A DNA stretch of 64,000 nucleotides, taken from the NCBI GenBank assembly GCA_903892355.1, contig CAITIE010000121.1, forward strand, positions 1 to 64,000, written 5' to 3'. The notes beneath the pieces are model-generated. The model searched no databases and was not told the origin of the DNA. It saw only the letters and a list, made by a program, of their open reading frames with translations. Below are positions 4,819 to 35,200 of the stretch, piece by piece. The DNA is from an uncultured Pirellula sp. GTDB taxonomy: Bacteria; Planctomycetota; Planctomycetia; Pirellulales; Pirellulaceae. The position numbers and the translations under genes are program-made. Each line of letters begins with the position of its first letter. Position 1 is the stretch's first letter.

Positions 4819-5976
4819 TTACTTGCCAGATTCAGGCGCCGGATGCAGCCTCAACACCAACTGCAGCGCCTCATCGCATGGCTGAACCGCAGCGAGGCCG
4901 TAGTTGCTTGCGGCGATGATTCCCCGCCCTTGCTCGGGAGCGAGGAAAACCACGCAGTACCACGATGTGTTGGAACCGTTGTGCGTCATGATCTTGCCAC
5001 CCGCCCAGGATCGCTCCGAGCATGTCCACCCTCCCGCATATGTCTGGCCCGCTTCCGGTGTGTGCAAATACGCGATCGACTCGCGACTGATCGGAATCGG
5101 TATGGTTGCGGCAGGATCGGCGGCGGTGTCTGCATCGCTCGACTGCGTCCTCTGCCGACGCGCCAATTGCAGATGGAACCTCAGGTACTTGATCCAATCC
5201 GGCATGGAGGCATAAACCGTCCCCGCAGGTCCCAGCGCGGGGACGTTGTCTTCCTCCGTCGGTCGCTTGATCCCGAATACGTTTTGGTGCCCCCACGGCA
5301 CGTCCTCGCTTAAGGATTTCGAAGGAGCTCCAAAACCGACCCGCTTCATTCCCAATGGCTCGAACAGTCTTTTCTGCATCTCGGCTTCCCACGCGACCCC
5401 TCGAATCTTTTCGATCACATGACCTGCGATCGCGTAGCCGAGGTTGGAGTATTCAAACTGCCCAACAAGCTTTGAATCCCTTCGCTTCTTCGATAGCCAA
5501 TGCAGAAGGTTGCGACGCAATTCAACGACATCGATCTCGGGATCCGCGAATCGAGTCCATGGTGGGTTGGGAACGGCACCGCTGGTGTGATGGATCAGTT
5601 CCGCCACCGTCGTATTCCCCCATTCCGATGCCGTAACGATCGGATCATCGGCGAATATTTCTCGAAGTGTCTCATCCCATCGAAGCTTGCCTTCATCGAC
5701 GAGCAACGCCAAAAGGGTCGCCGTCATGCTTTTGGTGCAGGATCCCAAATGCATCGGGTCGTCGCTCTTCAGCGGATCTTCCGAATCGATTCGTCGCACT
5801 CCTACCGCTTCGAGTTCCATCGTTCCGTCGATCGAAAAGTGCCCGGCGATCAGTCCAGGCAACCCCGATGCCTTTCGGATCGTCTCGAGCCCGTTGCGAA
5901 ATTCACTCTCGGTTTGAGAAAATCCGATCGTGCTGGAAGCAGCCCACAGCCAAACAAGGACAACAAGGGATCTCAT
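4819..5976 (-). CDS. Secreted serine hydrolase, beta-lactamase (class C/AmpC) fold
   Basis: A 385-residue penicillin-binding-protein/esterase-like serine hydrolase. With the start at 5976 it has a clean signal peptide (RSLVVLVWLWAASSTIGFS). The three active-site elements are present: SCTK at 79-82 (nucleophile Ser79, Lys82), YSN at 176-178, and HNG at 332-334 in place of KTG. Members act as esterases, D-aminopeptidases or peptidoglycan hydrolases more often than as antibiotic-degrading enzymes. The frame is open to 6060, so the start could be up to 28 residues earlier. It lies downstream of the M14/S9 peptidase gene on the same strand, which suggests co-transcription. Confidence 0.88.
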   Translation of the reverse strand: MRSLVVLVWLWAASSTIGFSQTESEFRNGLETIRKASGLPGLIAGHFSIDGTMELEAVGVRRIDSEDPLKSDDPMHLGSCTKSMTATLLALLVDEGKLRWDETLREIFADDPIVTASEWGNTTVAELIHHTSGAVPNPPWTRFADPEIDVVELRRNLLHWLSKKRRDSKLVGQFEYSNLGYAIAGHVIEKIRGVAWEAEMQKRLFEPLGMKRVGFGAPSKSLSEDVPWGHQNVFGIKRPTEEDNVPALGPAGTVYASMPDWIKYLRFHLQLARRQRTQSSDADTAADPAATIPIPISRESIAYLHTPEAGQTYAGGWTCSERSWAGGKIMTHNGSNTSWYCVVFLAPEQGRGIIAASNYGLAAVQPCDEALQLVLRLHPAPESGK

Positions 5977-6075
5977 CCATCGAGTATCCCAACGGAACCC
6001 GATATGGATCTGCTGCATCATTTGCGAACGGATTCGTACGGCTGCTGGGTCTTGATACATTCAACATCCACAAGC

Positions 6076-9000
6076 CTACTTCGGGCCTACCAAACTGCGA
6101 TTGAGGAAATCGGTCATCAATCGGTATTGATGGTACGACTGCTGTGCGTCGGTGATGCCGTGACGATTGTTCGGGTAGAGCATCAACTCGAATTGCTTGC
6201 CCGCTTTTTGCAAAGCATGCACGAACTGCATGGTGTTTGCCATGTGGACGTTATCGTCGATCTCGCCATGGATCAGGAGCAGTTTACCGTTCAGGTTCCC
6301 CGCAGCCTCAACGACCGAACTGGTTTTGTATCCCTCCGGATTCAATTGAGGCGTTCCCATGTAGCGTTCGGTATACACCGAATCGTAGTTGCGCCAGTCG
6401 GTCACCGGCGCCCCGGAGATACCGGCCCGAAACAGCTTGGAGTGGGTCAAGGCATAAGCGGTGAAATAGCCACCGTAACTCCATCCCCACACTCCAATGC
6501 GTTCAGGATCGGCCCACGGTTGATCCCCCAACCAGGTAGCGGCATCCTCCAAATCCCTCAATTCCAACGCGCCGAGATCGCGATAGATACGCCATGTATC
6601 CGCGTTCCCTTTCCCCAAAGCGGAGCGGTTATCACAGAGGAGAACCGCGATCCCGTTTTGGGCGAGGTAGCGGTGCCACAAGTCACTGCGATGCGTCCAG
6701 GAGTTTTCTACGGTGGGAGCCGAGGGCCCGCCGTAAACATGGATCAACACCGGAGCGCGCTGACCATCGCGGAGCCCCATTGGGCGATAGAGCATCGCCG
6801 GCATTTTTTGTCCGTCCCTCGCTGCAATTTCGAACAGCTCTACATCATTGCTCCGAACAAAATCAAAGCGGTCGCTACGGTAGCCACCGACATAACGCAC
6901 GCCATCCCCCTGCCGATTGCGCAACCAGAGCTGGGCTGGATGGGTCATGTCGCTCCACGAATCCATGAAATAGCTTCCCGTCGGATGCACGGAGATACGA
7001 TGCGAACCGAGTTGGCTCGATACGGTCTCGAGCTCGCCAGTCTCAAGCGACAGTCGGAGAACATCGGTGTTGGTCGCGGCCGATCGGTGACCTGTAAACC
7101 ATATGAATTTGCCCGAATCGGTCACCGCAGAGATTTCTTTGATGTCCCAATCCCCTCGCGTCAACTGAGTTCGCTTGCGCTGCCCTGAATTTTCCCGCTG
7201 CGTTGAAACACGGTACAGATGGCGCCTGCCTCCGTCGGCATCGCTCACCCAAAGGAAGCTGCCATCGGGCAACCATCGAGGCTCGTCGATCACGTCGATC
7301 CATGCCTTGGACTCCTCATGGACCAGTGTTTCCGAGGACCGCTTGCTGATGTCGAACTCAATGACATCGAGTTGGTTTTGGATCCGATTTTGCAGTTGAT
7401 AAACAAGCTTGTCCGCGTTGCTATTATCCTGGCCGATCGGTCTCCATCCAACGCGAACCACCAAGCGATCGTCTTCGGCATATTTCTCGAGGGGTACCAC
7501 CATGTCCTCGCCGCTGGCGATATCGACAACATGCAAGCTGACCAGCGGATTGTTCTGACCCGCTTTTGGATAACGCATGTTTTCAATTTTTTGAGCGAAG
7601 GCGAGAGAGTTGTCCACAACAAAGTTGGGAACTGGCGATTCATCCAATCGCAGGTAAGCGATCCGACGGCCATCGGGACTCCACCAGTACGATTTGAACT
7701 GCCCACGTCCATAGATTTCCTCTTGGTAAACCCAATCGAGTTTTCCGTTCAAGATTTCACCGCCGCCGTCCTTGGTCAGCTGTTTCAGTTCGCGCGTCTT
7801 GCAATCGACCATCCAAAGGTTCTGGTCCCGGATAAACGCAACATGGTTACGGGATGGACTTAACTCGACGAGTTCTTCCTCTTCATCCGGAGTTTCGGTC
7901 AATCGGATCGCTGTCTCGGTGGGGACATCGTAAAAGTAAAGATCCTGCTTATGGCGAATCAGCGCCGACGAGAATGTATCGTCGAAGACCTGCAATTGAC
8001 GTCCGTAGGGGGCTGCCGCGCCATCGGCCATCTCAGGAAGCTTGCTCAAGGCTTCGACGAGTTTGGCCGGTCGCTCAAACGGATGCATCGCGCCGGTTTC
8101 ACAGTCCGCATGGAACCACCGGTTATCGCGTTGGAACAAGTATCCTTCGCCATGAGGCATCCATTTTGGAATCGGAGCGGGCATCCCTGAAAACGCGACC
8201 TTTTGCTGCGGATCGAAAAGTTTTTCCAAACTCAACGATTCTCCTTGAACGTCGCTGGGGACCAAAGTCATCCAAGGTAGCGGGGGCAGGGGTGCCGCGG
8301 TCGCCAGCTCCGGCTTCGACTTGAGCCGCAAAACCGGATACGACGAGCCCTCGCGGAGACTGGGGTCCAAGAACCCCCAAGAAGCTAACGATTCGTCCGA
8401 ATGGGGTTCAAGAATATAGGTGGCCAATACACCGAGCGGATGCGCCGTCGGGACCAACCACCCTGCACCGAGCTGGGTCTCTAACGATTCCACCTCCACC
8501 GCGTACTTGGACATCTTGCGAAACTGAAACTCATTCCCTTCCTTGCGTGTTCGGATCACATACCGCTCCACAGGCAACGAAGCCTTAAGATCGATCGGAA
8601 CCAATGGGATCCCGTGCAATCGAAGTCGGCTGGCCACCCAAGAGCAGTCCGCAGGAACGAAGTAGTACGCGGGTGCATCGACGCTCAAGGTCGCTTCGCC
8701 CCGGTTCGCAACGGTGACTTCGTATTCGGTAGGAACCATTTCCTGAACCCGCTGTCGATCTTTGGGGGAGGGAAACGCTCTATCGCTGGGTTCTTTATTG
8801 TCGCTAGATTCTTTTTTATCGCTGTGATCGCGATCGACAGCAGAACCATCCCCCTCAGCGCCGCCCTTTGGCTGGATGCCGTTGGGGGTTTTAGGCCATG
8901 CATACGCTGCGACTTTTGATTTCCCTGCATCGGCGACGATTTTGCCTTGGATCGGCACACCGCGCGGTGACGTGTTAGCATCCGCAGCATCCGCCGCGTC

Positions 9001-10131
9001 GATTAGTTGATGGATTTTTGCAGCGTTATTCGTGAGTCCCTTTAAGCATTCATCGATGAAGGCATACGAGACGTCGATCCGACGTTTGTAGGTCGCGTAC
9101 GAGTAGGACTCCACCAAGATTCCAATCTTGCCGCGGAGAGCCATGTACTCGGTGCTGTAACGCGGCTCATAGCCGTAGCTCTCCCAAACGGTATGTTCCC
9201 GATTGAAGTTCCCGTAATAGAAAATCGGCATGTCGCGGTTGGTCATGGCCGACGATACCGATGGAAAAAACTCCCCTCGCATCCATTCGATCAATTGCGG
9301 CTTAGCCGCCGGATTATGCGGCAGATCGTAGGTCATGTCGTAGCGGTGGAGCGACCCGTTCGTGGTGTGCGCATCGATCAACACATCCGCATCCCATGCA
9401 TCGATCATCCGAACCAAAGAGCGAACTTCCAAAGAATCGAGTTTGACAAAGTCCCGGTTGAGGTCTTGGCCAATCGCATTCTCCCGGGTCCCCATCCCCA
9501 ACGCTGGTCCTTCCTGTCCCGGTCGATGCATCGCCCCGACCCGTTCGTTGCCATCGGCGTTGAAATTGGGGGCGAAGACGAGTACCGCATGTTCGAGATA
9601 CGGAGGCTCCTCGTGTTGCAGCAAATCCCGAGCGAGCGCGAGCAATGCTTCCTTGCTATCGCATTCCCCGCTATGAATGCCGCCCAAGAGAACGATGACC
9701 AAGCGAGGGTCATTGGGGGGGAGAGGTAGTTTCACATCCTCTTCCTTGGAGACCACCAAGGACCACAAGGGGCGATTTTCGTGGGTCATCCCATACTGGA
9801 TCAGTTTCGCATGCTTGCTAGCACCATCGAGCGCTTGCAAGAATGCCTCCACGTCCAAACCACGCGAGGTGGCCAAAAATTGGGAACGCTCAGCGATCGT
9901 GATCGGGCTTTTCACTCCGGAAGGAGCCCCCTGCGATGGCTTGCTCGGATCCTCACACCTAGCGGATCCCGAAGCCAACACCAAGGAGACCACCGCCATG
10001 CCAACCACAGCCGCCAGCCGGGCGAGGGACGGTGCCACGCTTCGACAACGTTTGCAAGGGACTGGAGGCGCAAAAAGAGGAAGGCCGTAAGTTTGGGGCA
10101 ACGGAGCGGTTGGTAATTGACAGCTATTCAT
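6076..10131 (-). CDS. M14 zinc carboxypeptidase fused to S9 prolyl-oligopeptidase (DPP IV-like)
   Basis: One uninterrupted 1351-residue frame carries two peptidases. After an Ala/Val-rich export segment (about 38-58), residues 80-370 form an M14 carboxypeptidase domain with HSGE (His153, Glu156), a third zinc ligand candidate His255 in LIDAHT, and Glu341 in LVESYSY as general base. Residues from about 640 to 1080 look like the DPP IV beta-propeller. The C-terminal alpha/beta hydrolase has GWSYGG (Ser1218), HGEIDDNVH (Asp1292/1293) and His1324 in NNRHG. The expected activity is cleavage of peptides from both ends: C-terminal residues by M14, N-terminal dipeptides after Pro/Ala by S9. It is likely periplasmic. 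The start at 10131 is the longest option; the ATG at residue 45 is an alternative. Confidence 0.9.
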   Translation of the reverse strand: MNSCQLPTAPLPQTYGLPLFAPPVPCKRCRSVAPSLARLAAVVGMAVVSLVLASGSARCEDPSKPSQGAPSGVKSPITIAERSQFLATSRGLDVEAFLQALDGASKHAKLIQYGMTHENRPLWSLVVSKEEDVKLPLPPNDPRLVIVLLGGIHSGECDSKEALLALARDLLQHEEPPYLEHAVLVFAPNFNADGNERVGAMHRPGQEGPALGMGTRENAIGQDLNRDFVKLDSLEVRSLVRMIDAWDADVLIDAHTTNGSLHRYDMTYDLPHNPAAKPQLIEWMRGEFFPSVSSAMTNRDMPIFYYGNFNREHTVWESYGYEPRYSTEYMALRGKIGILVESYSYATYKRRIDVSYAFIDECLKGLTNNAAKIHQLIDAADAADANTSPRGVPIQGKIVADAGKSKVAAYAWPKTPNGIQPKGGAEGDGSAVDRDHSDKKESSDNKEPSDRAFPSPKDRQRVQEMVPTEYEVTVANRGEATLSVDAPAYYFVPADCSWVASRLRLHGIPLVPIDLKASLPVERYVIRTRKEGNEFQFRKMSKYAVEVESLETQLGAGWLVPTAHPLGVLATYILEPHSDESLASWGFLDPSLREGSSYPVLRLKSKPELATAAPLPPLPWMTLVPSDVQGESLSLEKLFDPQQKVAFSGMPAPIPKWMPHGEGYLFQRDNRWFHADCETGAMHPFERPAKLVEALSKLPEMADGAAAPYGRQLQVFDDTFSSALIRHKQDLYFYDVPTETAIRLTETPDEEEELVELSPSRNHVAFIRDQNLWMVDCKTRELKQLTKDGGGEILNGKLDWVYQEEIYGRGQFKSYWWSPDGRRIAYLRLDESPVPNFVVDNSLAFAQKIENMRYPKAGQNNPLVSLHVVDIASGEDMVVPLEKYAEDDRLVVRVGWRPIGQDNSNADKLVYQLQNRIQNQLDVIEFDISKRSSETLVHEESKAWIDVIDEPRWLPDGSFLWVSDADGGRRHLYRVSTQRENSGQRKRTQLTRGDWDIKEISAVTDSGKFIWFTGHRSAATNTDVLRLSLETGELETVSSQLGSHRISVHPTGSYFMDSWSDMTHPAQLWLRNRQGDGVRYVGGYRSDRFDFVRSNDVELFEIAARDGQKMPAMLYRPMGLRDGQRAPVLIHVYGGPSAPTVENSWTHRSDLWHRYLAQNGIAVLLCDNRSALGKGNADTWRIYRDLGALELRDLEDAATWLGDQPWADPERIGVWGWSYGGYFTAYALTHSKLFRAGISGAPVTDWRNYDSVYTERYMGTPQLNPEGYKTSSVVEAAGNLNGKLLLIHGEIDDNVHMANTMQFVHALQKAGKQFELMLYPNNRHGITDAQQSYHQYRLMTDFLNRSLVGPK

Positions 10132-10260
10132 AGAATCTGAAGTGCCCCCTTTCCGAAAGGGCTGGATCGTTAGATAACGTAAGGACGGGCCGGGTGCGGC
10201 GCGTACTTATTTTAGTCGAATGGTACTTAGTTGTCGGACTGCATGTTTGGAGTGAGAAAA

Positions 10261-10866
10261 ATGACTCGGATTCAAGCGTTGTTAGCAAACGGTTTGGTAT
10301 GGATGCTCGCGGTTCAAGCGTGGGCATTCTGGGATCGGGCTGAGGTTTTGGCGCAGAATCCTCGCGTCTTATTAGAGACGAGCATGGGGGATTTAGAAGT
10401 CGAACTCTACCAAAAAGAAGCCCCAAAGACGGTGGCCAATTTTCTCAGCTACGTAAAGAAGGGGCACTACGATGGGACTATTTTTCATCGGATTATCCCC
10501 AACTTTGTGGTCCAAGGGGGTGGCTTGGATCCCAGCATGAAGGAACGTCCGACCGACGATCCTATCGAAAACGAGTCGACCAATGGTCTCAAGAACGAAA
10601 AGATGACCCTGTCAATGGCTCGAACCCGCGCCCCGCATAGCGCCACGTCCCAGTTCTACATCAACCTCAAATACAACTCGGACCTGGATAAGTCCAAGGC
10701 CATCGATCGCTTTGGGTATTGCGTGTTCGGCAAGGTGATCAAAGGGGAAGACATCGTTGAGAAGATGGCCAAGTCCAAGACGGGGTTGAAGGCTGGTAAC
10801 TCCGACGTCCCCGTGGAACCGATCGTCTTGAAGAAAGCGACCATCCTCGAGCCATCCAAGAACTAA
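10261..10866 (+). CDS. Exported cyclophilin-type peptidyl-prolyl cis-trans isomerase
   Basis: A 201-residue cyclophilin that speeds cis/trans isomerisation of peptidyl-proline bonds during folding. It begins with a signal-like segment (residues 1-33, ending AEVLAQ). The catalytic core follows, including HYDGTIFHRIIPNFVVQGGG (with FHRIIPNFVVQGG the family signature), FYINL and FGYCVFGKVI. The ATG at 10261 is preceded by GGAG at 10249-10252 with 8-base spacing, which decides the start over upstream codons in the same frame. It is transcribed away from the M14/S9 peptidase gene; the 130 bases between should hold both promoters. A terminator follows at 10946. Confidence 0.93.
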   Translation: MTRIQALLANGLVWMLAVQAWAFWDRAEVLAQNPRVLLETSMGDLEVELYQKEAPKTVANFLSYVKKGHYDGTIFHRIIPNFVVQGGGLDPSMKERPTDDPIENESTNGLKNEKMTLSMARTRAPHSATSQFYINLKYNSDLDKSKAIDRFGYCVFGKVIKGEDIVEKMAKSKTGLKAGNSDVPVEPIVLKKATILEPSKN

Positions 10867-18766: not shown

Positions 18767-21700
18767 CTACTGCCGCGATTGTGGGGTGACCTTGAATCGC
18801 AACACCTTGTCTCCTCGTTTCACTGCGATCTCGGTCTCTTGCCCAACTTTCAGCGCTTCGATCGCAAACGTGTAGTCGTAGATGTTTTCCACCTTTCGAC
18901 CTGCCAACTCCACCACCACGTCCTTGGCTTGAACACCCGCTTTCGCCGCTGGCCCATCTTTGGAAACACCCGATAGGAGTACGCCTTGAACGTCTCCTTG
19001 CGCGTAGTCAGGAATCGACCCAAGGTACGCCGTCATCGCGGCCCGGGCCCCTTGGTTTTCCGGCGCCTTCTGTTCGGTGAACTCCGGAGCGGTGTCCGAA
19101 GTCGCTACCGATCGTGCGATCATCCCCATCAGTTTGGCGATCTTTGCAGCCCCGTCGTAATTGAGCAACTCTGGGGTATCGCGAGGAGTATGGTATTCCG
19201 AATGGGAACCGGTAAAAGCCGACAAGATCGGTACGCCTTTGAGGAAGAACGTGCTCGCGTCGGTAGGCAAGTAGCTGTCGCTTTGGAGGGTTACCGGTAA
19301 ACCGACCACCGCATTTCGCTTCTCAATCTCGCCCTTCCAATAAGGCGAGGAGCCGATGCCTTGCAGGACCAAGTTATCCCGCAATCGCCCGACCATGTCC
19401 AAATTAAAGCAGGCCACGACAGTGGGATAAAGCTTGTGACCGTGCGATGCAGGAAGGTCCGGATAGATTTCGTAGAAATGGTCCGCAAAGTGAGCCGAGC
19501 CGAGCAAGCCCATCTCTTCACCGGACCACGCTGCAAAAAGGACGTCGTGCTTCAGATCGAGTTTGCCACTTTTCTTTTGGCTCGCCAGTGACTGGGCAAT
19601 TTCGAGCATACCAGCAACACCAGACGCATTGTCGTCAGCGCCGCGGTGGATCCCGTTCCGTTCCTCGTCCCTCGCCAAACTCGAGCCGCTGGCTCCAGCT
19701 CCGAGATGATCGATGTGAGCTCCGATCACAATCATCGTCTCCGATGGTTTGTCCGAGGCTCGCAGGATACCTAGCACATTGGTTCCGGTACGCTTGACCG
19801 GTTGCACATCGATGGTGGCTCGGACTTCCACTTCAGGAAGAACAAACCCCATCATCATCTCCCCTCGATCGAGTTCGCCTTGGAGGTCAGCGAGTTTATC
19901 CTCGGATTTTTCAAACCATTTCTCAGCAACTGCGTCGCTCACGCTGATGGCGGCGATACTGGTCCCCGAGAGCGAACCATCGGTTTGCAATGGGACTAAT
20001 TGTTGCCGGACGCCACTCTTGGGACCACTGACGACGATAATTCCCTTCGCACCCCGATCGCGAGCGGCCATGGCTTTGTATCGCAGCGAGCTGTAGCGCG
20101 CCAAATGCTGTCGACGTTCGGGAGTGACATCGGATGGCATCTGGCGCAGCACCATCACCCACTTATTCTCGACATCCAAATGGACGTACGAATCGTATTC
20201 CGGTTGACCTTGGTCTGCGGGTGCAACGATACCGTAACCAGCAAATACCACCTCGGTCGCTTCGATGCTCGTTGAGTTCGAGAAAACCAATGGTCTCCAA
20301 TCCTCATCGAGCTTCCATGTGTCGTTTCCGGACTGAAGCAAATTGCTCGAAAGGACTTCGACTCCAGCCGTGTAGGGGAATGGGTAGAAGTAGTTTCCGA
20401 ACCCGTCCAGTTCGTCGGTACTCCCGTTCAGTTCCGACTTATTCCCTGGAAAGGATTGCGTCCCCGCGGGAGCCAGTCCGAGCGATGACATGGTGCTCGC
20501 AACGTAGGCTGTCGCCAAGCGTTCACCCGCAGTACCGGTCAATCGACCGCCGAGCTCAGGCCGGCAGAGATAATCCACATGGCGACCGATATCGGAGGCC
20601 TTGTAGTCGTTATCGCTCGCGGCGAGGGTCGCTTTGGCTTCGGAAGTCGCGAGTGCGATGTCCTTCGAACTGAGCTCGGTGGACGACAGGCCACCTGCTC
20701 CCGCGCGGTTCGCGCCCAGTTGATTTGCCTCAGACATGTTCTTCTCGCCCAAAGGCTTGCTAGCCCCCAACCCGAGTGCTTGGCGAGCCGCCGCATCATT
20801 CCATTTTGCGATGAAGATCTGAGATTTTTTGTCCGCGGTTCGATTGCTGGTCCATGCCAGCTCGGAACCATCGGGGGTGAACACAGGGAGGCCATCGAAT
20901 CCGTCGGTGGTGGTGACTCGAACGGGTTCATGCGTTCCCGCTGCATCGACGAGATAAAGCTCAAAGTTCGCGAAGCCTTGAAGGTTGGTCGCAAAGATCA
21001 AGTAATCGCCGATGGGATGAAAGTACGGAGCCCAGCTCATCGCCCCAAGCTTCGTGATTTGCTTGGCATCCGAGCCGTCGATGTTCGCCGAGTAGATCTC
21101 TGCGGTTGCTCCATCTTCGCTGAATCGACGCCAGCAGAGGCGTTTTCCATCAGGCGAGAAGAATGGGCCGCCGTCGTATCCAAACACGTCCGTGATTTGG
21201 CGGACGTTGGTTCCGTCGGAGTTCATCACATAAAGGTCCAATGCAACCGCCGGGTCGTTTTCGAACAACGTCTTCTCACGTTCCGACAAAGGCTTGGCAT
21301 AAGCGGCCCTGTTCGACGAGAAAGCGATCAGCTTGCCATCGGGGCTGTAGGAGCCTTCGGCATCGTATCCTTTCACGTTGCTCAAGTTCTTGTACTCGCC
21401 GGTCTTTCGGTTCCACTCGATGAGCTCGAACTGCGGGTCGTAATCCCATGCGTAACGACGTGTTTGTCCCGAGGCACGAAACTCCAGTTCCGCGTTCTGC
21501 TTGGCAACCGCTTCAGGATCTTGTTGGGTGGATGCGAACAGCACGCGATCCCCATCAGGATGAATCCAAGCGCACGTCGTTTTTCCATCCCCCGGAGAAA
21601 CCCGCTCAACATCTCCTGTTTCCCGATCGAGCAGGTAGATTTGATAGAATGGATTTGTCTTTTCCCGCTCGCTCTGGAAGACCATATAGCGGCCATCGCG

Positions 21701-21958
21701 GCTGAAATACCCCTCTCCAGCTCGGGCTCCCTCGAACGTCAACTGCCGCGTTCCTGTCAGAAACTTCGTTTCGGCTGCTGAGGCAACGTTTTTATCGGCC
21801 GAGGCATCTTGCGCGAAACTTACCGTCGCCACCCCGAACGCCATGAAAAAGGCTGCCGGCAGGACGGTTTGCTTGGCAATTAGTCGCTTAGCAAAAAATG
21901 GCGGGTTGGACGAATGCGATCGCATCGAGCGGTACCAATGGTTTCGTAGGAGATTCAT
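18767..21958 (-). CDS. Exported M28 peptidase with TolB-like propeller, PA and PDZ domains
   Basis: A 1063-residue secreted metallopeptidase. After a signal segment (ending ATVSFAQ), residues of about 70-400 form a WD40/PD40-type propeller (repeats such as YSPDGKLIAFSSN and FSPDGKRLCW). A PA domain follows (around FAGYGIVAPA and RGAKGIIVVSGP). The M28 catalytic core has di-zinc ligand motifs GAHIDHLG (His748, Asp750), RGADDNASG, WSGEEMGLLGS, FNLDMVGR and HSEYHTPRDTP. A PDZ domain ends the protein (GVLLSGVSKDGPAAKAGVQ). It is predicted to be an aminopeptidase. The start at 21958 is the longest choice; the Met at 21925 is an alternative. Confidence 0.92.
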   Translation of the reverse strand: MNLLRNHWYRSMRSHSSNPPFFAKRLIAKQTVLPAAFFMAFGVATVSFAQDASADKNVASAAETKFLTGTRQLTFEGARAGEGYFSRDGRYMVFQSEREKTNPFYQIYLLDRETGDVERVSPGDGKTTCAWIHPDGDRVLFASTQQDPEAVAKQNAELEFRASGQTRRYAWDYDPQFELIEWNRKTGEYKNLSNVKGYDAEGSYSPDGKLIAFSSNRAAYAKPLSEREKTLFENDPAVALDLYVMNSDGTNVRQITDVFGYDGGPFFSPDGKRLCWRRFSEDGATAEIYSANIDGSDAKQITKLGAMSWAPYFHPIGDYLIFATNLQGFANFELYLVDAAGTHEPVRVTTTDGFDGLPVFTPDGSELAWTSNRTADKKSQIFIAKWNDAAARQALGLGASKPLGEKNMSEANQLGANRAGAGGLSSTELSSKDIALATSEAKATLAASDNDYKASDIGRHVDYLCRPELGGRLTGTAGERLATAYVASTMSSLGLAPAGTQSFPGNKSELNGSTDELDGFGNYFYPFPYTAGVEVLSSNLLQSGNDTWKLDEDWRPLVFSNSTSIEATEVVFAGYGIVAPADQGQPEYDSYVHLDVENKWVMVLRQMPSDVTPERRQHLARYSSLRYKAMAARDRGAKGIIVVSGPKSGVRQQLVPLQTDGSLSGTSIAAISVSDAVAEKWFEKSEDKLADLQGELDRGEMMMGFVLPEVEVRATIDVQPVKRTGTNVLGILRASDKPSETMIVIGAHIDHLGAGASGSSLARDEERNGIHRGADDNASGVAGMLEIAQSLASQKKSGKLDLKHDVLFAAWSGEEMGLLGSAHFADHFYEIYPDLPASHGHKLYPTVVACFNLDMVGRLRDNLVLQGIGSSPYWKGEIEKRNAVVGLPVTLQSDSYLPTDASTFFLKGVPILSAFTGSHSEYHTPRDTPELLNYDGAAKIAKLMGMIARSVATSDTAPEFTEQKAPENQGARAAMTAYLGSIPDYAQGDVQGVLLSGVSKDGPAAKAGVQAKDVVVELAGRKVENIYDYTFAIEALKVGQETEIAVKRGDKVLRFKVTPQSRQ

Positions 21959-24857: not shown

Positions 24858-27800
24858 ATGTTGTCGATCGTTCCCTCGATGAAGCATTCCATCATGGACT
24901 GGTTCTACCAGTCGATCTCGCGTACCGCGACAAGTATGATGCTCGCAGCCCTGTTCATTTCCAGCGATGTCACCACAGCTCAACCACCTGAGGACACGGC
25001 CACCGAACCTGCGCTCGATCCTGCAACCGCTGAAAAGTCTTTTCGCACCCAAGATGGCTTGCGCTGGGAAATGCTCCTCAGCGAACCAACCATCACACAA
25101 CCTTTGATGACCACATTCGACTCGCATGGTCGATTATGGGTTGCAGAATATCGACAGTATCCTAATCCGGAAGGGCTCAAACAACTCAGTCGGGACAAGC
25201 ATTGGCGGATCGTCTACGACACCGTACCGCAACCCCCGGGCCGCGGCGGATTGCCAGGCAAGGATCGAATTTCGGTCCATGAGGATACCGATGGGGATGG
25301 GACCTTCGAAACTCATCGCGTCTTTGTCGACAATCTCAATATCGCCACTGCCGTAGCCCCGGTCACCAAAGGTGCCTGGGTCCTCAATCCACCCTACCTT
25401 CTCTACTACGCGGATGAGAACGAAGACCTTCAAGCCGACGGACCACCCGAAATCCACTTGACTGGGTTCGGTCTCGAGGACACTCACTCGGTCGTGAACA
25501 GCCTCTGCATGGGGCCTGATGGTTGGCTTTACGCAGCCCAAGGCAGCACCGTGAGCGGCATGGTCAAAGCCTATGGCTCCGATGAAAAGCCATTCCAAAG
25601 CCTCGGCCAAGCGATCTGGCGTTACCATCCGGTCACGCGTCGTTATGAGATCTTTGCCGAAGGTGGGGGCAATGCATTCGGGGTGGCCTTTGATGATCGT
25701 GGTGATGTCTACTCGGGCCATAACGGAGGAGATACACGAGGTTTTCACTACTACCAAGGCGGCTACTACCGCAAAGGCTTCTCGAAACATGGAAGCCTCT
25801 CCAATCCGCATAGCTACGGGTACCTCAACCCGATGCAGCACGATCCCATCCCGCGATTCACTCATGCCATGTTGATGACGGAGTCAACGGCGCTCGCTCC
25901 GTTCACCCCGCAATCGATGCTGGCGGTCGATCCATTGCACGGAAAACTGATCCAGACGGAGCTCAAACCCACAGGCTCCACATTTGCCACGCGCGATATC
26001 GGGGATACTGTTTCGAGTCGCGACAAGTGGTTTCGACCGGTTGCTATCACTGATGGTCCGGACGGTGCCGCTTACATTTGCGATTGGTACGATTCGGTCG
26101 TCGCCCATATCTATGCCTTCGAAGGCCGCGTCGATCGCGACCGTGGTCGAGTGTACCGTCTCCGACCGGAACAGACCCCTGATCCAACGAAGGCGGCGCT
26201 CTGGAACTCAAAACTCGCCAATGCTGGCACCTCGGAGTCTCTCGAGTATCTATTGGCTACCCTGTCGCACCCTTACCGATGGCAGCGCTGGCAAGCCAGA
26301 CGATTGATCGCCGAACATCCTCGACGCGACGAACTCGTAGCGCCAGCGCCATTGATGCACGCACTCACCGAGAGCGATGACACTTACCCCGTCGAATACC
26401 TTTGGACGGCGCATGCTTGCGGTTGGATTCGCGATACCATCCCATTCCAACTGCGAAGCGAAACTGGCAATACCGTCGAATACCCCCCGGTCGATCCCAC
26501 CAAACTATTGCTCCATCCAAATGCGGCGGTCCGCGAATGGACGGTGCGACTCGTATGCGATGACAACAGCGTCACCCCGGAGACGCTCGCTGCAATCGAT
26601 GCTCTCGCTCGCGAGGAATCGGACCCGCGCGTTCTGAGCCAAATCGCTTGCTCGGCCAAGAGATTGCCATCCGATCATGCGGTACGGATCGTCGCAGGAT
26701 TGCTCTCCAAGCCCAGAAGTGCGGACGATCCTTTCTTTCCACTCCTATGCTGGTGGGCGATCGAACAACATCATGGCGATTACCCATCGATCTTAAAATT
26801 TCTGATAGACAATCCTGAGACATGGGCCCATCCGATCGCCAGAACGACGGTCTATCCGAATTTGATACGGCGTTGGTCCACGGTCGCAACCCCGGAAGCC
26901 TACCTCGCCGTGTCGAAGGTATTCCAACAGATCGGCACCTTGCCAGCACCCCTTCGGAGCGAGGCAGCCAATGCAGCTCAGAACGCCTTTGAGCAATCCT
27001 TTGTCGGTCGCTCCCTTTCCGGAGTCCCCGACGCGGTGATCGACGCCATGGTCGCGTTGGGCCAGCCACCACTGACGTTGCAAGTTCGCCGAGGCGATGA
27101 GGCCGCGATAGCCCACGCCGTCACCACCATCCTCGATCCGAAAGCCACAGAGAGTGTGCGCATGCAATTGGCAAGGCTCGCAGGGGAATTGCCCCATACG
27201 CGTGTGCGATCGGATCTGCGAGACGCGCTTCTGGCTGTAACACGCGATGCTTCGGCAAAGAACGCATTGCGATCGAGCGCGATCAGCGCTCTGGCTAGCT
27301 TCGATTCGGATTCGATCGCAACAACCCTCCTCGACCTTTGGAAAGATCTCCCCCAAGAGCTTAAACCGGCCGCGGGATCGGTGCTCGCAGCTCGTTCCAA
27401 GTGGACCGAACAATGGCTCAATGCGTGCGAATCGGATCAGGTGAACGGCGCAGAGATGCCGCCAGAGTCGGTGCGTGCGATGAAACTGCATCTCGATGCA
27501 TCGTTGCAACAGCGGCTTACAAAACTGTACCCCGAGTTCGCCTCGATCGATCTCGCGACCGCCAACGAACGGAGCCAACAGCTCGCCAAATCGGTGGTGG
27601 ATGGGAACGGGGATCCGTACAAAGGCAAGAAGCTTTATCGCGAACTTTGCGGGCGATGCCATCAACTGTTCGACGATGGAGGCCGTGTCGGCCCCGATCT
27701 GACCGGCTACCAACGGGATCAACTAGGAACCCTTTTGCGGAACATCGTGGCACCGAGCCTCGAAATCCGAGAAGGCTACCAAATGGTCCGGCTGATGACC

Positions 27801-28031
27801 TCCGATGCAGTGGTCTTGAGCGGTTTTATCGAAAGCGAGCAGCCCGACCAAGTCGTCCTGCGCAGCATCGATGGGCAGATGCACACCCTCGATCGCGGCG
27901 ACATTGAGCAACTGCAACCCCAAGTCCTCTCGTTGATGCCCGAGGGACTTCTCGACAAGCTGGATGAAACGCAGTTGCGAGACTTGATGGCTTACCTGCG
28001 AAGCTCTCAACCACTCAACGATGGGACATAG
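24858..28031 (+). CDS. PVC-type membrane-bound dehydrogenase with C-terminal haem domain (1)
   Basis: A 1057-residue exported protein. A hydrophobic N-terminal segment (SMMLAALFISSDVTTAQ) precedes a beta-propeller dehydrogenase-like domain (LWVAEYRQYPNPEG, EDTDGDGTFETHRVF, RYHPVTRRYEIFAEGGGN, CDWYDSVVAHIY). A HEAT-like helical middle follows, then a cytochrome-c-like domain with CGRCH at Cys931, Cys934 and His935. The C-terminal signature LSLMPEGLLDKL is typical. Families of this type are expanded in Planctomycetes and Verrucomicrobia; they are thought to oxidise sugars or alcohols and pass electrons to the haem, but direct biochemical proof is scarce. The start was chosen at the first ATG; later Mets at residues 8 and 13 are possible. 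Confidence 0.88.
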   Translation: MLSIVPSMKHSIMDWFYQSISRTATSMMLAALFISSDVTTAQPPEDTATEPALDPATAEKSFRTQDGLRWEMLLSEPTITQPLMTTFDSHGRLWVAEYRQYPNPEGLKQLSRDKHWRIVYDTVPQPPGRGGLPGKDRISVHEDTDGDGTFETHRVFVDNLNIATAVAPVTKGAWVLNPPYLLYYADENEDLQADGPPEIHLTGFGLEDTHSVVNSLCMGPDGWLYAAQGSTVSGMVKAYGSDEKPFQSLGQAIWRYHPVTRRYEIFAEGGGNAFGVAFDDRGDVYSGHNGGDTRGFHYYQGGYYRKGFSKHGSLSNPHSYGYLNPMQHDPIPRFTHAMLMTESTALAPFTPQSMLAVDPLHGKLIQTELKPTGSTFATRDIGDTVSSRDKWFRPVAITDGPDGAAYICDWYDSVVAHIYAFEGRVDRDRGRVYRLRPEQTPDPTKAALWNSKLANAGTSESLEYLLATLSHPYRWQRWQARRLIAEHPRRDELVAPAPLMHALTESDDTYPVEYLWTAHACGWIRDTIPFQLRSETGNTVEYPPVDPTKLLLHPNAAVREWTVRLVCDDNSVTPETLAAIDALAREESDPRVLSQIACSAKRLPSDHAVRIVAGLLSKPRSADDPFFPLLCWWAIEQHHGDYPSILKFLIDNPETWAHPIARTTVYPNLIRRWSTVATPEAYLAVSKVFQQIGTLPAPLRSEAANAAQNAFEQSFVGRSLSGVPDAVIDAMVALGQPPLTLQVRRGDEAAIAHAVTTILDPKATESVRMQLARLAGELPHTRVRSDLRDALLAVTRDASAKNALRSSAISALASFDSDSIATTLLDLWKDLPQELKPAAGSVLAARSKWTEQWLNACESDQVNGAEMPPESVRAMKLHLDASLQQRLTKLYPEFASIDLATANERSQQLAKSVVDGNGDPYKGKKLYRELCGRCHQLFDDGGRVGPDLTGYQRDQLGTLLRNIVAPSLEIREGYQMVRLMTSDAVVLSGFIESEQPDQVVLRSIDGQMHTLDRGDIEQLQPQVLSLMPEGLLDKLDETQLRDLMAYLRSSQPLNDGT

Positions 28032-28826: not shown

Positions 28827-31800
28827 TCACTTTGCAGGAACTTGGCCTGGCGACATCAGGTATTTCATCAAATCCGCTCGCATCTCTTGGCTGAGAGGAT
28901 CGAGGAGCCCCTCCGGCATCAGGGATTGATCCGATTTGCGGCGTTCTAAGATTTCGTTCTTGTTCAATAGGACTTTTTCTTTTGCGGTCTGAACCGTCAC
29001 CGAGTTTGAATTCTCGCTAACGGGAACACCGGTAATCACACCCCCATCGTCTGTTTGGAAGTAGGTGACTTGGAAACTGCTCGCAACGACAGCGCTCGGC
29101 GCGAGGATATTTTCAATCCAATACCGTTTATTGGAGCGTTGACCTCCCGTAAGCTCGGGACCGATGGCGCCGCCTTCACTAAAGAGTTTGTGGCATTGGG
29201 CGCACGCATTGTTCCAAACCGTTCTTCCGCGACGGGCGTCCCCATTGGCGATCATCTCATCGGTCAGTCCTCGTTCCATATCGGTGATGGCGAGCATCTT
29301 GTCCTCAGCGATCCCAAGCTTAGGATTGATAGCACGAGCCCTCTGGAGCAGATCCCAGTCAGCGACGGCCAGGAATTGTCGCCACGTTGACGCATCGATG
29401 TTTTCGCTCGGAATCTTTTTCTGCTCAATGGCGTCGAGCAGGATGGGCAACGATTCGCGTTTACCGCCGAGCGCACTGACGATTCCTGATTTCCCAGGTG
29501 GCCACGCTCCTGCGTACATATCGATCAGCCGTTTTGCGCGATCTTCGTTGAGCGTTTTGCCGATGGCCATGGCTGCCACACCACCGAAGTTTTGATCATT
29601 TACAAAATTCCAGAGCGTGTTTTGCGCAGCTTCGGAATCGAGGTTCCCAAGCGACTCGATCGCCGATCGACGTGCGGCGGCAGCCACCTTCGAATCACTC
29701 GCGAGCGCGATCAAATCTTCCGCCGCAACCGAGCCTGAAAAGACTGCTTGCAGCAGGGTGGCTTTCTGCCGAGTGGACTCATCCGCGTGATCTTTTGCCT
29801 TTCCAGCCAACTCATCCCACGCCAGTGGTGCCTTGGCATTCTTGCGACCTTGATAAGCTTCCCACAACCCTCGAATCACGTATTCCTGGGTTTTTGCATC
29901 GGCTTTACGAGCCACATCGGCGAGGAAAAAGTTAAGTGCTTCAAACGCTTCGCTCGGCGATTCACCATCGACGGCAGGCTCCGATGCCAACCTACGGATG
30001 ATCAGCTCCGTCAGTTTAGGCAATTGGCTCGCCAACGCCAACTTGGCCCCCTTCATCGGATTTTCGACAATGGCGTGCCGGACGGAATACCACAGCACGA
30101 GGGAGAAATCGCGATCGTTGGCGAGGTCGGCGCTGCTTGCCAGAATCGAAGCGATACGCCAAGGATCGTCTCCGAAACGGGGCAACAGCGCCGCGATATT
30201 CAATCGCACCAGCGGACTAATCTTGTCGATCGTTTTTGCTTTCAGAAAATCGACGACCTCTGCGATCGCTTCCGACTGCTGCTCTTCGTTCATCAAGGGG
30301 TATCGTTCAGCAAGTGTTCGGATCGCCCATGCATGAACCGCTTCATGTTGTTCAGACAGAAGAATCGTATAGAGCTGCTTGGTAGGAAACTCACCGTTTC
30401 CGGCTGCTTCGATGAGCTGCAGCAATCGCAATTGTTGGGTCACAGCATCGGCTGTGCCAGCGACTTCGGAAACATCCTTGCGGTTACCGCCGCGAATGGC
30501 TTCCTTTTGCATCTCCTTCGTCACCTCGATTTTGACTAACAGGGAATCTGTTCGATTCAACCGAAGCGCCTTGAGAAGTTGATTCGTGAACCAGGCATTT
30601 GGATGTTGAGCGATTTCGAAGACTTCGTCCGCTCGAAGGACCGTCAAGCCTCGAACGGCAACCGGCCCATTGCCCGATGGTTTCTTAGCAGCATCGATCA
30701 GGTCGGCTCCTGCTTTCGAGATCTTCGCAATCGACTGAGCCACTTTTTGGAAAGGGCGTTGATCCTTGGCATCGTAGGAAATGCGATAGATGCGGCCACT
30801 GGTGCGATGAACACCATCGTCATCGTGGCACTCACCGATATCCGACCAATCGATGACCAGAACACTTCCATCGGGAGCGGTGGTGAGATCGAGTCCGCGG
30901 AACCATGGGTCCTCCCAAAAGACCATGTCCTGATCATGCTTGCCAACAAAGCCCGCACCTTGCCGCTCGAGTCGATCTCGGTTGATACGGCGACCGTGCA
31001 GATTGAGTGTGAACATTTGATTTCGGTACTCAGACGGCCACTGGTCGGCTTGATAGATCATCAATCCGCTGTGCGCGTGCCCACCACCGGCAGCGTCCGT
31101 TCCGGTACTTGGAGGTCCCTTGCGCGTCTCGCGCCAATCCTCTCCCTTTTCATCCCAATGCACATGGTCCGCGATTTGGGGAAGGAGTTCGTAAACCGTC
31201 GGGTCAGAATCCTCACCATACATCCGTTGCAAGTGGGCCCCAGGGATCGCATGCCAAAGATGCCCGATCACCGTGTTGATGAAAAAGAGATTGCCGTGCG
31301 CATCCCAATCCATGCCCCATGGATTGGTCGTCCCCTCGGAAACCATTTCTATTTTGTGAGTCACGGGGTGGTAGCGCCAGACACCACAATGAAGCCTAGT
31401 CTTTTGCGGCGTTGTGGCAGACTGGGATTGCAACGGAACGCCATAACCTGCCGGCGGTACGGGTATACTTCCCGTTAGCGGCCCCGTTAGCGGCACGTTC
31501 GACACTGGACCCTTGTACTCCACATCGGAAGAACCCAGGATGCCATGGCGGCCATACAACCATCCATCCGATCCAAATCGCAAGCCGTTCGCAAAGTTAT
31601 GCCGGATGTTGGGATTGAACCCATCGAGCACGGTTATGGGTTCTTGATCGGGAACATCGTCGTTATCTCGGTCTGGAATGAACACCAGACGCGGTGAAGC
31701 CAACGCCCAAATGCCGCCATTTCCGACCTCGATGCTCGTTAGCTCCTTCAAGTTCTCGTAGAACACCTTGCGTTTATCAAACGTTCCATCGCCATCGGTA

Positions 31801-32153
31801 TCCTCGAGTACTAAGATGCGATCCGACAGGTCCATGTCGAACTTCTTGGACGATTCGGCGTACGTGTAGTTTTCAGCGACCCACAGGCGTCCACGCACAT
31901 CCCACGCCATCCCGATCGGTTGCTGCACATCCGGTTCGGATGCGGCGACCTGAATTCGAAATCCAGGTGGAAGCTTCGCTGTCGCCACCGACTGTTCAGG
32001 CGAATACTTAGGGACCGTTTCTTCTTGGCTATCGTAGATCTTCTGAGCCGAAACCGGGAAAGCGAATCCAGTCGCGATCGCCAGGGTAATGGCCCATGAG
32101 AAAACGGCCGTGGTAGAAAAACATAGACTGAAGCAAAGTCGGTTGGATTGCAT
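28827..32153 (-). CDS. PVC-type membrane-bound dehydrogenase with C-terminal haem domain (2)
   Basis: A 1108-residue exported protein. Its start is fixed by a strong AAGGAG six bases upstream of the ATG at 32153, which removes 12 residues from the longest frame. A signal peptide (FSWAITLAIATGFAFPVSAQ) leads into the dehydrogenase/propeller domain (GMAWDVRGRLWVAENYTY, LEDTDGDGTFDKRKVF, GMDWDAHGNLFF, DIGECHDDDGVHRTSGRIYR). HEAT-like repeats follow, then the haem domain with CAQCH (Cys984) and QSLMPEGLLDPL at the end. It is divergently transcribed from the third paralogue across 143 bases, so the two may share control. Confidence 0.9.
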   Translation of the reverse strand: MQSNRLCFSLCFSTTAVFSWAITLAIATGFAFPVSAQKIYDSQEETVPKYSPEQSVATAKLPPGFRIQVAASEPDVQQPIGMAWDVRGRLWVAENYTYAESSKKFDMDLSDRILVLEDTDGDGTFDKRKVFYENLKELTSIEVGNGGIWALASPRLVFIPDRDNDDVPDQEPITVLDGFNPNIRHNFANGLRFGSDGWLYGRHGILGSSDVEYKGPVSNVPLTGPLTGSIPVPPAGYGVPLQSQSATTPQKTRLHCGVWRYHPVTHKIEMVSEGTTNPWGMDWDAHGNLFFINTVIGHLWHAIPGAHLQRMYGEDSDPTVYELLPQIADHVHWDEKGEDWRETRKGPPSTGTDAAGGGHAHSGLMIYQADQWPSEYRNQMFTLNLHGRRINRDRLERQGAGFVGKHDQDMVFWEDPWFRGLDLTTAPDGSVLVIDWSDIGECHDDDGVHRTSGRIYRISYDAKDQRPFQKVAQSIAKISKAGADLIDAAKKPSGNGPVAVRGLTVLRADEVFEIAQHPNAWFTNQLLKALRLNRTDSLLVKIEVTKEMQKEAIRGGNRKDVSEVAGTADAVTQQLRLLQLIEAAGNGEFPTKQLYTILLSEQHEAVHAWAIRTLAERYPLMNEEQQSEAIAEVVDFLKAKTIDKISPLVRLNIAALLPRFGDDPWRIASILASSADLANDRDFSLVLWYSVRHAIVENPMKGAKLALASQLPKLTELIIRRLASEPAVDGESPSEAFEALNFFLADVARKADAKTQEYVIRGLWEAYQGRKNAKAPLAWDELAGKAKDHADESTRQKATLLQAVFSGSVAAEDLIALASDSKVAAAARRSAIESLGNLDSEAAQNTLWNFVNDQNFGGVAAMAIGKTLNEDRAKRLIDMYAGAWPPGKSGIVSALGGKRESLPILLDAIEQKKIPSENIDASTWRQFLAVADWDLLQRARAINPKLGIAEDKMLAITDMERGLTDEMIANGDARRGRTVWNNACAQCHKLFSEGGAIGPELTGGQRSNKRYWIENILAPSAVVASSFQVTYFQTDDGGVITGVPVSENSNSVTVQTAKEKVLLNKNEILERRKSDQSLMPEGLLDPLSQEMRADLMKYLMSPGQVPAK

Positions 32154-32296
32154 AGGGGGCTCCTTGGAGTTCTCGAGTCCGTCAATCATACTCGACGTGC
32201 CCCCGCGCGCGGCATTACCATAGCAGTTTGCTCCGGTTCAAAATACGACCCGCCTCAATCCGCATCCTACCTGCACTTCAGTCTCTCCGAGATACC

Positions 32297-35200
32297 ATGT
32301 CCCTTCGAACCCTCTCTCACGCGATCGTAATGTTGTCGACCTCGATCGTTGCTTCGCCCCTTTGCCGTTTTTGCCTGGGAGCAATCCTTTTAGCGATCCA
32401 TTCGGCGATCCTTTCGGCGGGGACGCTTTGCGCAGCAGAAGAAAACGACCGCCCTGCCGAACCGAAGTCACCCGAGGCGTGGTACGGCCAAACCATTCGC
32501 GAATCAGCTTGGCGTTCCCCCGCCAACGAACAAAATGGCTTTCACGTTCCGACCGGCTTCGTGGTCGAACTCGTCGCGGCCGAGCCTGACATCGCCAAGC
32601 CGATGAACATCGCATTCGACGCAAAGAAGCGACTATGGGTCACCCAAAGCGTCCAGTACCCTTTCCCCGCAAAACCGGAAGAGAAAGGTGCTGACTCCAT
32701 CGCTCTCCTCGAGGATCGCGATGGTGATGGAAACTTTGAGACCAAAAAGATTTTCGCGGATGGACTTAATATACCGATCGGCATCCTTCCTTACCGCGAC
32801 GGTGTGATCGCATTCTCGATCCCCAATCTATGGTTGCTGCGAGACACCGATGGCGATGGTGTCTGCGACGAACGCAAGGTTATCCTCGGGCCTTTCGACA
32901 CCACCAGAGATACTCACGGGATGGTCAATGCGCTTCGCGACGGTGGAGATGGTTGGATCTATGCGTGCCATGGTTTTAACAACATCTCCAAGCTCCGAGG
33001 AACCGATGGACATGCCATCGAATTGACCTCGGGCAACGTCTTTCGATTCCGTCCCGATGGCTCGCGTGTCGAGCAATTCACCTCCGGCCAAGTCAATCCG
33101 TTTGGGATGACCCGCGATGAGTTTGGCTTTTGGTTCACCGCCGACTGCCATAGCAAACCGATCACGCAACTCCTCAAAGGTGGTTGCTATCCGAGTTTCG
33201 GTCGGCCCGACGATGGCTTAGGGTTTCTCCCACCGATGATGGATCATTTGCATGGCAGCACCGCCATCTCGGGAATCGCCCATGTTCGGGCAGGGACGTT
33301 TCCCGATGCCTATCGAGGCAACTTGCTCAGCGGTAATGTCATGACCTGCCGCATCAACCGCAACCGATTGGAATACCGAGGGGCGACAGCGAAGGCGATC
33401 GAGATGCCCGATTTGCTCACTAGCGACGATCCATGGTTCCGCCCTGTCGATCTCCAATTCGGGCCCGATGGCGCACTTTATATAGCCGACTTTTACAACA
33501 AGATCATCGGGCACTACGAGGTCCCCCTCGATCACCCAGACCGCGACCGAGCGAGCGGCCGGATCTGGCGCATCCGCCCCGTCCCAACCTTGGTCGCCAA
33601 CGGGCTAAAACCAACTGCCACTGCAGCCACAACCTCCGATGCTATCCAACCTCCCAAAACCATCAACAGCGATGAAATCGCAATCACCACCCTACAAGCT
33701 CCAAACATCGATCCTAACGATCCTGCGAAAGCGATCGAACGACTGCAGGCCCTCGAATGGCTCGGTGCAAACGGGGGGCTCGAATCCATCGATGCGATTT
33801 TCTTAAGCCTTGCTTCAGTAGACGCATCGTTCGATCCTGTCTTGAAACAAGCCCACTGGATTGCGATTCGCGATGCACTGGCTCGGACCACGAAAACAGG
33901 TGGCAAATTCCCATTGGAAATACTGTCACCCATGCGAACTCAAGATGCCGAGGAACGCTTTCAAGCGTTGATCAAAGTGCTCAAGGCTGTTCGTGATCCC
34001 GCAGCAGCCAACTGGTCGTTGCAATTGATCGAACTGGCTGGTCGACAACTTCCAGAGGGATGGAAGACCGCATGGCTCCAGGAAGCGATCTTGCACCTCG
34101 CAACCGTTGCCAATGAAAACGACATCCCGCAGATTCTTTCCCTCCTCGAAAAAACCAATCCGGACATCTCCTCGCGGCAGGAGCAAATCCTCGCGATCGC
34201 AGAAGCCCAACGGACACGCAACGGAAAGCTCTCCCCGAAATTGATCGAGCTGGGTGTAGCTACGTTGATCGATGCGATCGGGCCATGGACCCAATCCACC
34301 ACCGATCCGGTGGTGCTGCATTCGTGGCATGCTCGGCCTCTGCGAGGCAAAGAAGATCGCGAGTGGCCGATCGAATTGCGGTCTGTCGACATCCAGAGCG
34401 ATCGAGGCCAACAGGCGAGCGGCGATAATCCGATACCGTTCTGGAGCAGTCTCGGACTTGGTGAGCGCTACGCCGGAACCTGGACGAGCAGCGCGTGGGT
34501 TGCCCCTGAATCCGTCTCGTTTCGGATAGTGGGCCACAATGGGTTGCCGAGTGAACCGGACCTCAAAAACAACTACGTGCGGGTTTTAGCTCAAAACGCT
34601 TCCACGCGTGACTGGATCGAGGTCGCCCGTGTCTACCCACCGCGCAGCGATATCGGCAAATGGGCTACGCTCGACTTGAAGGCCTACCAAGGTCAATCCA
34701 TGCGATTGCAAGTCGTCGATGGCGATGGGCACGACGCCTACGCTTGGATAGGAATCACCGACGTCTCCGTCCCAGGACTAGCCCGCAGCCCACTGCGCGA
34801 TCGCTATGAGTCGTTGAAACGGATCGCGAAATGCTTTGGGCCGTCCCTCGGCTCCATCTCCGATGAAACGGTTCGTACCCGTGTCACGAAAGCGTGGTCG
34901 GCACTGATGCTCTCGCAACAGCTCGATCCCTCCTGCAAAGCGTCTCTCCAAAAATGGGTACTAGGGAGCAATTATCCGATGATCAGCGAACTGGTCGATT
35001 GCGTGAGCGAGCGCGGCTGGGAAGACCTGCTTCAAGGGGAACCGCAACTCGCTACCGCTACGGCTAACGTCACTGGTACTGCAAAGGAAACGCTCCCAGC
35101 CTACCGATGGGACTGGAATAACCTCGATCCCCGCACGGTGACTTGGATCGCTGAGAATTACTGCCGTCGATCGAATGCGGCTGGCCAAGAGGATTTAGGG

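Follow-up and report, generated by a model that had tools for sequence, protein, structure and literature searches.

Does a single planctomycete gene encode two unrelated exopeptidases, a zinc carboxypeptidase of family M14 and a dipeptidyl-peptidase IV (DPP IV) of family S9, and what would such a protein do? The question is raised by a coding sequence on the minus strand (6076..10131) of a stretch of DNA of 64,000 nucleotides, here called the window, which covers positions 1 to 64,000 of contig CAITIE010000121.1 from an uncultured Pirellula sp. (assembly GCA_903892355.1). An initial annotation, made from the sequence alone, had described the product as one exported protein with intact M14 and S9 catalytic sets, able to trim peptides from both ends. 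The protein is a two-domain M14 unit joined to a whole DPP IV and, as judged from residue conservation, the predicted folds and signs of purifying selection, it is probably an exported bifunctional exopeptidase that trims peptides from both ends.

Domain layout and active sites

The coding sequence forms one open frame of 1351 codons with zero internal stops, and its product (1351 aa) has three Pfam matches above cut-off: PF00246 (M14) at residues 95-230 (E 7e-15), PF00930 (DPPIV_N) at residues 728-1065 (E 1.9e-78) and PF00326 (Peptidase_S9) at residues 1155-1347 (E 8e-53). The occurrence of M14 and S9 in one frame, as initially annotated, is thereby borne out. From the N- to the C-terminus the order is M14, the C-terminal domain of the M14 unit (CTD) and a complete DPP IV (residues ~640-1347), all encoded on the minus strand. 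The N-terminal 59 residues (9955..10131) are a probable signal peptide and contain the segment that is most hydrophobic in the whole chain (residues 36-52, mean Kyte-Doolittle value 2.33), which suggests that the protein is probably exported. The M14 zinc carboxypeptidase catalytic domain (residues ~75-395; 8947..9909) is followed by a variable spacer (residues 396-470; 8722..8946), weakly constrained and in part of low model confidence, and by the CTD (residues ~471-630; 8242..8721). Because the part between the two enzymes (residues ~470-630) also terminates free-standing M14 proteins, it is regarded as a true domain and the junction is placed near residue 640. The DPP IV half consists of a beta-propeller (residues ~640-1090; 6862..8214) and an S9 alpha/beta-hydrolase domain (residues 1100-1347; 6091..6834). 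Two more specific identities were considered and rejected: the protein scores 101.1 bits against a curated cut-off of 900 for Dpp5 (NCBIfam NF053518), and 86.2 bits against a curated cut-off of 400 for lasso peptide isopeptidase (NF033523).

Active-site residues were compared in an alignment of 54 fusions, comprising the window protein, 20 from the same genus and 33 others; three fusions of the genus that are in pieces were left out. In the M14 half the zinc ligands His153, Glu156 and His255 (HxxE and a distant His) and the catalytic Glu341 are present where the initial annotation had placed them. A profile alignment to carboxypeptidase D (1h8l, E 3.3e-10) identifies Arg216, Asn225 and Arg226 as counterparts of Arg127, Asn144 and Arg145 of carboxypeptidase A (CPA), which together with Glu270 serve the oxyanion, the C-terminal carboxylate and catalysis according to the available text of PMC3940198. 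The same text gives an Arg-to-Asn spacing of 226 to 235 in Burkholderia BcCCP, identical to that between Arg216 and Asn225. All seven catalytic or carboxylate-binding residues are kept in 51 of the 54 aligned fusions. The predicted fold of the M14 half is that of a carboxypeptidase; with regard to the subfamilies M14A-M14D, the sequence profile is nearest to carboxypeptidase D, and structures are tied among CPA, CPB and cytosolic types.

In CPA and BcCCP the S1' pocket is lined by the positions 17, 15 and 14 before the catalytic Glu (PMC3940198, in the text available). Counted by ungapped spacing from the catalytic Glu, these are Arg324, Ser326 and Thr327 in the fusion. Arg324 is invariant in the M14-intact fusions (51/51) and in the aligned free-standing M14 relatives (21/21), which in a predicted S1' pocket is a hint that the M14 half may prefer acidic C-terminal residues.

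The S9 part (residues 730-1347) aligns with the solved bacterial DPP IVs 2ecf (E 4.8e-111) and 5yp1 (E 2e-105), and propeller and alpha/beta-hydrolase fold are those of S9B. The available text of PMC5807507 lists for PmDAP IV (5yp1) the triad Ser613/Asp689/His721, the double-Glu motif 208-209, the oxyanion Tyr527 and an S1 pocket of Asn614, Val639, Trp642, Tyr645, Tyr649 and Val692. Ser1218, Asp1292 and His1324 align with this triad, which confirms the serine and the histidine first proposed; of the aspartates left open as 1292/1293, Asp1292 aligns with Asp689, and position 1293 is Glu in two relatives of the same genus (L010, L022). Tyr1133 is the oxyanion counterpart, Glu804-Glu805 form the double-Glu motif, and Val1243, Trp1246, Tyr1249, Tyr1253 and Val1295 occupy the pocket in place of Val639, Trp642, Tyr645, Tyr649 and Val692. 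The sole pocket difference is Tyr1219, which matches Tyr631 of the human enzyme and not Asn614 of PmDAP IV. All 54 fusions keep Ser, Asp and both Glu, and 53 keep His, the remaining frame being cut by a contig end; two lesser pocket positions vary, with Phe at 1219 in some and Pro at 1243 in three. Loss of one active site on alignment to characterised members, which the initial annotation had named as a possible objection, is thus not seen in the window protein, and both sites are intact.

Recurrence, selection and spread

The same-genus survey covered 27 genomes, the window's own included. Twenty-one of them carry the fusion as a complete single frame, G006 on a single contig of 6.5 Mb, and in three (G003, G004 and G022) it lies in pieces on separate contigs. 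The same domain order, for which a survey of genomes had been suggested at the outset, was also found in other families. In the metagenome-assembled genome (MAG) of Pirellulaceae bacterium KatS3mg111 (L092:4824-8667) the halves occupy overlapping frames and the second lacks its own signal, which suggests a fusion whose frame is broken, really or through sequencing; its pieces were compared separately and left unmended. An artefact of assembly or a missed stop, raised in the initial annotation as an error joining two genes, is practically excluded: the gene breaks seen elsewhere (L092; G003, G004 and G022) have no equivalent in the window, whereas the same single frame recurs in 20 other genomes of the genus and in distant families, and purifying selection spans both halves.

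This selection was estimated as non-synonymous against synonymous divergence (dN/dS) from the fusion in G008, which is 90 percent identical. The dN/dS pairs are 0.034/0.896 (M14 domain), 0.049/0.779 (CTD), 0.034/0.707 (propeller) and 0.031/0.678 (S9 domain), against 0.168/0.665 in the spacer and 0.435/1.072 in the N-terminus. In three more distant pairs, with silent sites saturated, M14, propeller and S9 domains change less at amino-acid sites than CTD, spacer and N-terminus. The low dN relative to dS indicates similarly strong purifying selection on both enzyme halves, and both active sites look functional.

Among 296 genomes of the order sample 28 match the M14 unit, and in 17 of these M14 and DPP IV lie in one frame as judged by BLAST, two of the 17 with an inactivated M14; two further genomes of the order carry the halves apart, in two frames (G315) or on two contigs (G236). 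The phylum sample of 392 genomes gave 102 matches at E 1e-40 or better. Thirty of these were kept as loci, namely 11 fused (own genome included), 18 free-standing and one cut by a contig end (L136 in G384). A second contig of G384 (L177) has its start within a CTD-plus-DPP IV sequence, so that this genome probably holds a broken fusion. G551 is an additional phylum genome with a fusion; most other matches were judged by frame length only. Carriers known by name include MAGs of the Pirellula type, Mariniblastus, a MAG of the Gemmataceae (L104) and two other MAGs, labelled Verrucomicrobia (L099, L100). M14 and DPP IV each occur also as separate proteins in the same phylum, in agreement with the earlier remark that these folds are normally separate.

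An operon-like forerunner was not seen: no DPP IV occurs in the flanks examined of the 18 free-standing M14 loci (up to ~1.5 kb; 164 bases downstream of L118), and no M14 beside free-standing DPP IV loci within the flanks examined. Two further candidates for fusions were rejected. In L102, a frame of 1306 codons considered as a second type of M14 fusion, ~730 residues before M14 are of low complexity without a Pfam match; given this and a lipoprotein-like signal at an apparent start just before M14, it is read as free-standing. In L183 the sequence before DPP IV is mostly of low complexity, without a Pfam match, and this locus too is read as free-standing. L108 and L110 carry M14 within other multidomain proteins.

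Proposed function and competing explanations

The protein would be exported to the periplasm by means of its N-terminal hydrophobic segment. The double-Glu motif of the DPP IV half would grip a peptide by its free N-terminus, from which Ser1218-Asp1292-His1324 would release Xaa-Pro or Xaa-Ala dipeptides. In the M14 half Arg216, Asn225 and Arg226 would hold the terminal carboxylate, while Glu341, acting as the base, and the zinc bound by His153, Glu156 and His255 would free single C-terminal residues. Incoming periplasmic peptides would in this way be shortened from both ends, giving dipeptides and amino acids for uptake. The earlier picture of an exported two-ended trimmer stands as far as a probably exported single chain with two intact, unrelated peptidase sites is concerned; the "peptide-degradation machine" goes further, and we infer the joint action of both halves on the same peptide.

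Several points weigh against two-ended trimming. Both activities are predictions, for the window protein as for its relatives. Export is predicted from a single hydrophobic segment. The counterpart of PmDAP IV Arg106 (human Arg125), needed for full activity of PmDAP IV, was not located, its region lying outside the 5yp1 and 2ecf alignments. The fusion was not found in three of the 27 same-genus genomes searched (G005, G021, G023). Three fusions, L151 (G173), L167 (G039) and L163 (G551), have at least two zinc ligands replaced, His255 included, with S9 intact, and L166 (G033) is a frame of 941 codons with CTD and DPP IV and without the M14 domain. All four keep the S9 site, and none of the 54 fusions was seen to pair an intact M14 site with a defective S9 site. 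M14 activity is thus dispensable in those lineages; since L151, L167, L163 and L166 stand in different places of the DPP IV tree, the losses look independent, and two-ended trimming is not essential everywhere to the architecture.

The strongest competitor to joint action on one peptide is that the halves act on different substrates, so that the fusion only fixes their ratio and provides a single export step, with no gain on any one peptide. This is a real possibility, although we do not consider it the probable one. It agrees with the free-standing relatives of both halves in the same phylum, whose separate genes are not neighbours in the flanks examined, and with the variable, weakly constrained spacer. 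The presence of the architecture in several planctomycete families and in the two Verrucomicrobia-labelled MAGs, in contrast, is less well explained by co-export alone.

It is unlikely that the M14 half, instead of being a general carboxypeptidase, is devoted to special substrates (glutamyl or cell-wall peptides, for example), with DPP IV working beside it. Such a role would suit the polar S1' positions with their invariant Arg324, and also the gene that lies 15 nt downstream of the fusion on the minus strand (4819..6060), a predicted S12-type (beta-lactamase-like) serine hydrolase of PF00144 with SCTK, YSN and HNG motifs. However, among the loci read this hydrolase adjoins the fusion in the window and G008 only, and the S1' assignment was made by ungapped spacing and not from a substrate-bound structure. 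The hydrolase is possibly co-transcribed with the fusion.

More doubtful still is the explanation that the M14 unit serves DPP IV mainly as a scaffold, as a gate or by shaping the dimer, with its catalytic role secondary or on the way to being lost. The zinc-ligand losses in L151, L167 and L163 beside an intact S9 site, and the retention of only the CTD before DPP IV in G033, are what this explanation would lead one to expect; against it, every M14 residue checked is kept in the window protein and its 20 same-genus relatives, and the M14 domain equals the DPP IV domains in its low dN/dS. For the window protein, trimming from both ends remains the preferred reading.

History, neighbouring genes and known relatives

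In quick trees of both halves, with mixed support, the fusions fall into the same two groups. For the M14 half a single clade of all fusions was not rejected in the approximately unbiased (AU) test (p-AU 0.57, 58 rows), with L109, L167, L118, L102, L113, L094, L121, L132, L127 and L103 dropped and L092 counted as a fusion. Six of these ten dropped rows are free-standing M14 proteins nested among fusions, and when they are kept the single clade is rejected (p 1.6e-60, 64 rows). For the DPP IV half, too, the AU test did not reject a single clade (p-AU 0.281; 49 rows under a simpler model) after 18 rows had been dropped, including the nested free-standing DPP IV L035, close copies and some others. 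The nested free-standing M14 proteins (L094, L121 and others) and L035 suggest splits or losses. These trees are compatible with a single old fusion followed by losses or splits, the number of origins being one or two. It is quite improbable, in our estimate, that the join arose twice, in a Pirellulaceae line and in a line across other planctomycetes and Verrucomicrobia, for the reason that a common scaffold lets the exopeptidases hand one peptide to each other, with one genus using an exported prolyl isomerase as helper and with the M14 half later becoming a non-catalytic gate of DPP IV in several lineages.

A cyclophilin peptidyl-prolyl isomerase is encoded on the plus strand (10231..10866), divergent from the fusion. 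It was sought in the 24 same-genus genomes whose available sequence includes the start of M14 and 1 kb or more upstream of it. The divergent pair is present in 15 of them (window, G001, G004, G008, G009, G010, G011, G013-G019, G025) and absent in nine (G002, G003, G006, G007, G012, G020, G022, G024, G026); in G003 and G022 the upstream side of the fusion is on other contigs, without a divergent cyclophilin. Three of the nine (G006, G022 and G024; L021, L023 and L082) have another cyclophilin 110-145 nt downstream on the strand of the fusion, only ~30 percent identical yet with a clear PF00160 match. A cyclophilin thus flanks the fusion in 18/24 same-genus genomes, in two arrangements. Outside the genus, 30 fusion loci with 1 kb or more of upstream sequence showed none in the flanks examined. 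Enzymes of the DPP IV type reportedly cleave trans prolyl bonds only; if this holds, it would be plausible for a proline-specific peptidase to have an isomerase as neighbour, which we mention only as a lead.

Other large proteins are encoded in the window. A minus-strand frame of 1063 aa (18767-21958) combines PD40 propeller repeats, an M28 peptidase and a PDZ domain and is another large multidomain peptidase. Three neighbouring large proteins, at 24858-28031 (plus), 28827-32189 (minus) and 32228-35848 (plus), all match DUF7133, and two of these also match cytochrome c.

The M14 and DPP IV families are known, and the joined form is a variant for which no description was found in open-licence literature searched for the fusion and for planctomycete peptidases; protein databases may list the architecture. 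The available part of PMC2605481 surveys five serine protease families, S9 not among them.

A conserved join of an N-terminal and a C-terminal exopeptidase from unrelated families offers a direct test of whether tethering benefits two exopeptidases. Relatives with a naturally inactive M14 half are ready comparisons; L151, L163 and L167 are natural pseudoenzyme forms of this half. DPP IV is a much-studied human drug target, and a natural variant with an extra catalytic domain is of interest to that field.

Among known systems, SmDAP IV (2ecf) and PmDAP IV (5yp1) share with the fusion the propeller, hydrolase domain, triad, double-Glu motif, oxyanion Tyr and proline pocket, whereas their solved chains are lone DPP IVs of ~740 residues without an M14 unit. 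The M14 half is 16-20 percent identical over the fold to carboxypeptidase D (1h8l / 1qmu), BcCCP (4b6z) and human CPA4 (2boa), and differs from them in the C-terminal domain that follows and in its polar S1' positions with an invariant Arg. The free-standing M14-CTD proteins of Planctomycetota and Bacteroidota (e.g. L103, L105, L106, L113) have the same catalytic domain and CTD in ~550 aa; these stop after the CTD, whereas the fusion continues into DPP IV.

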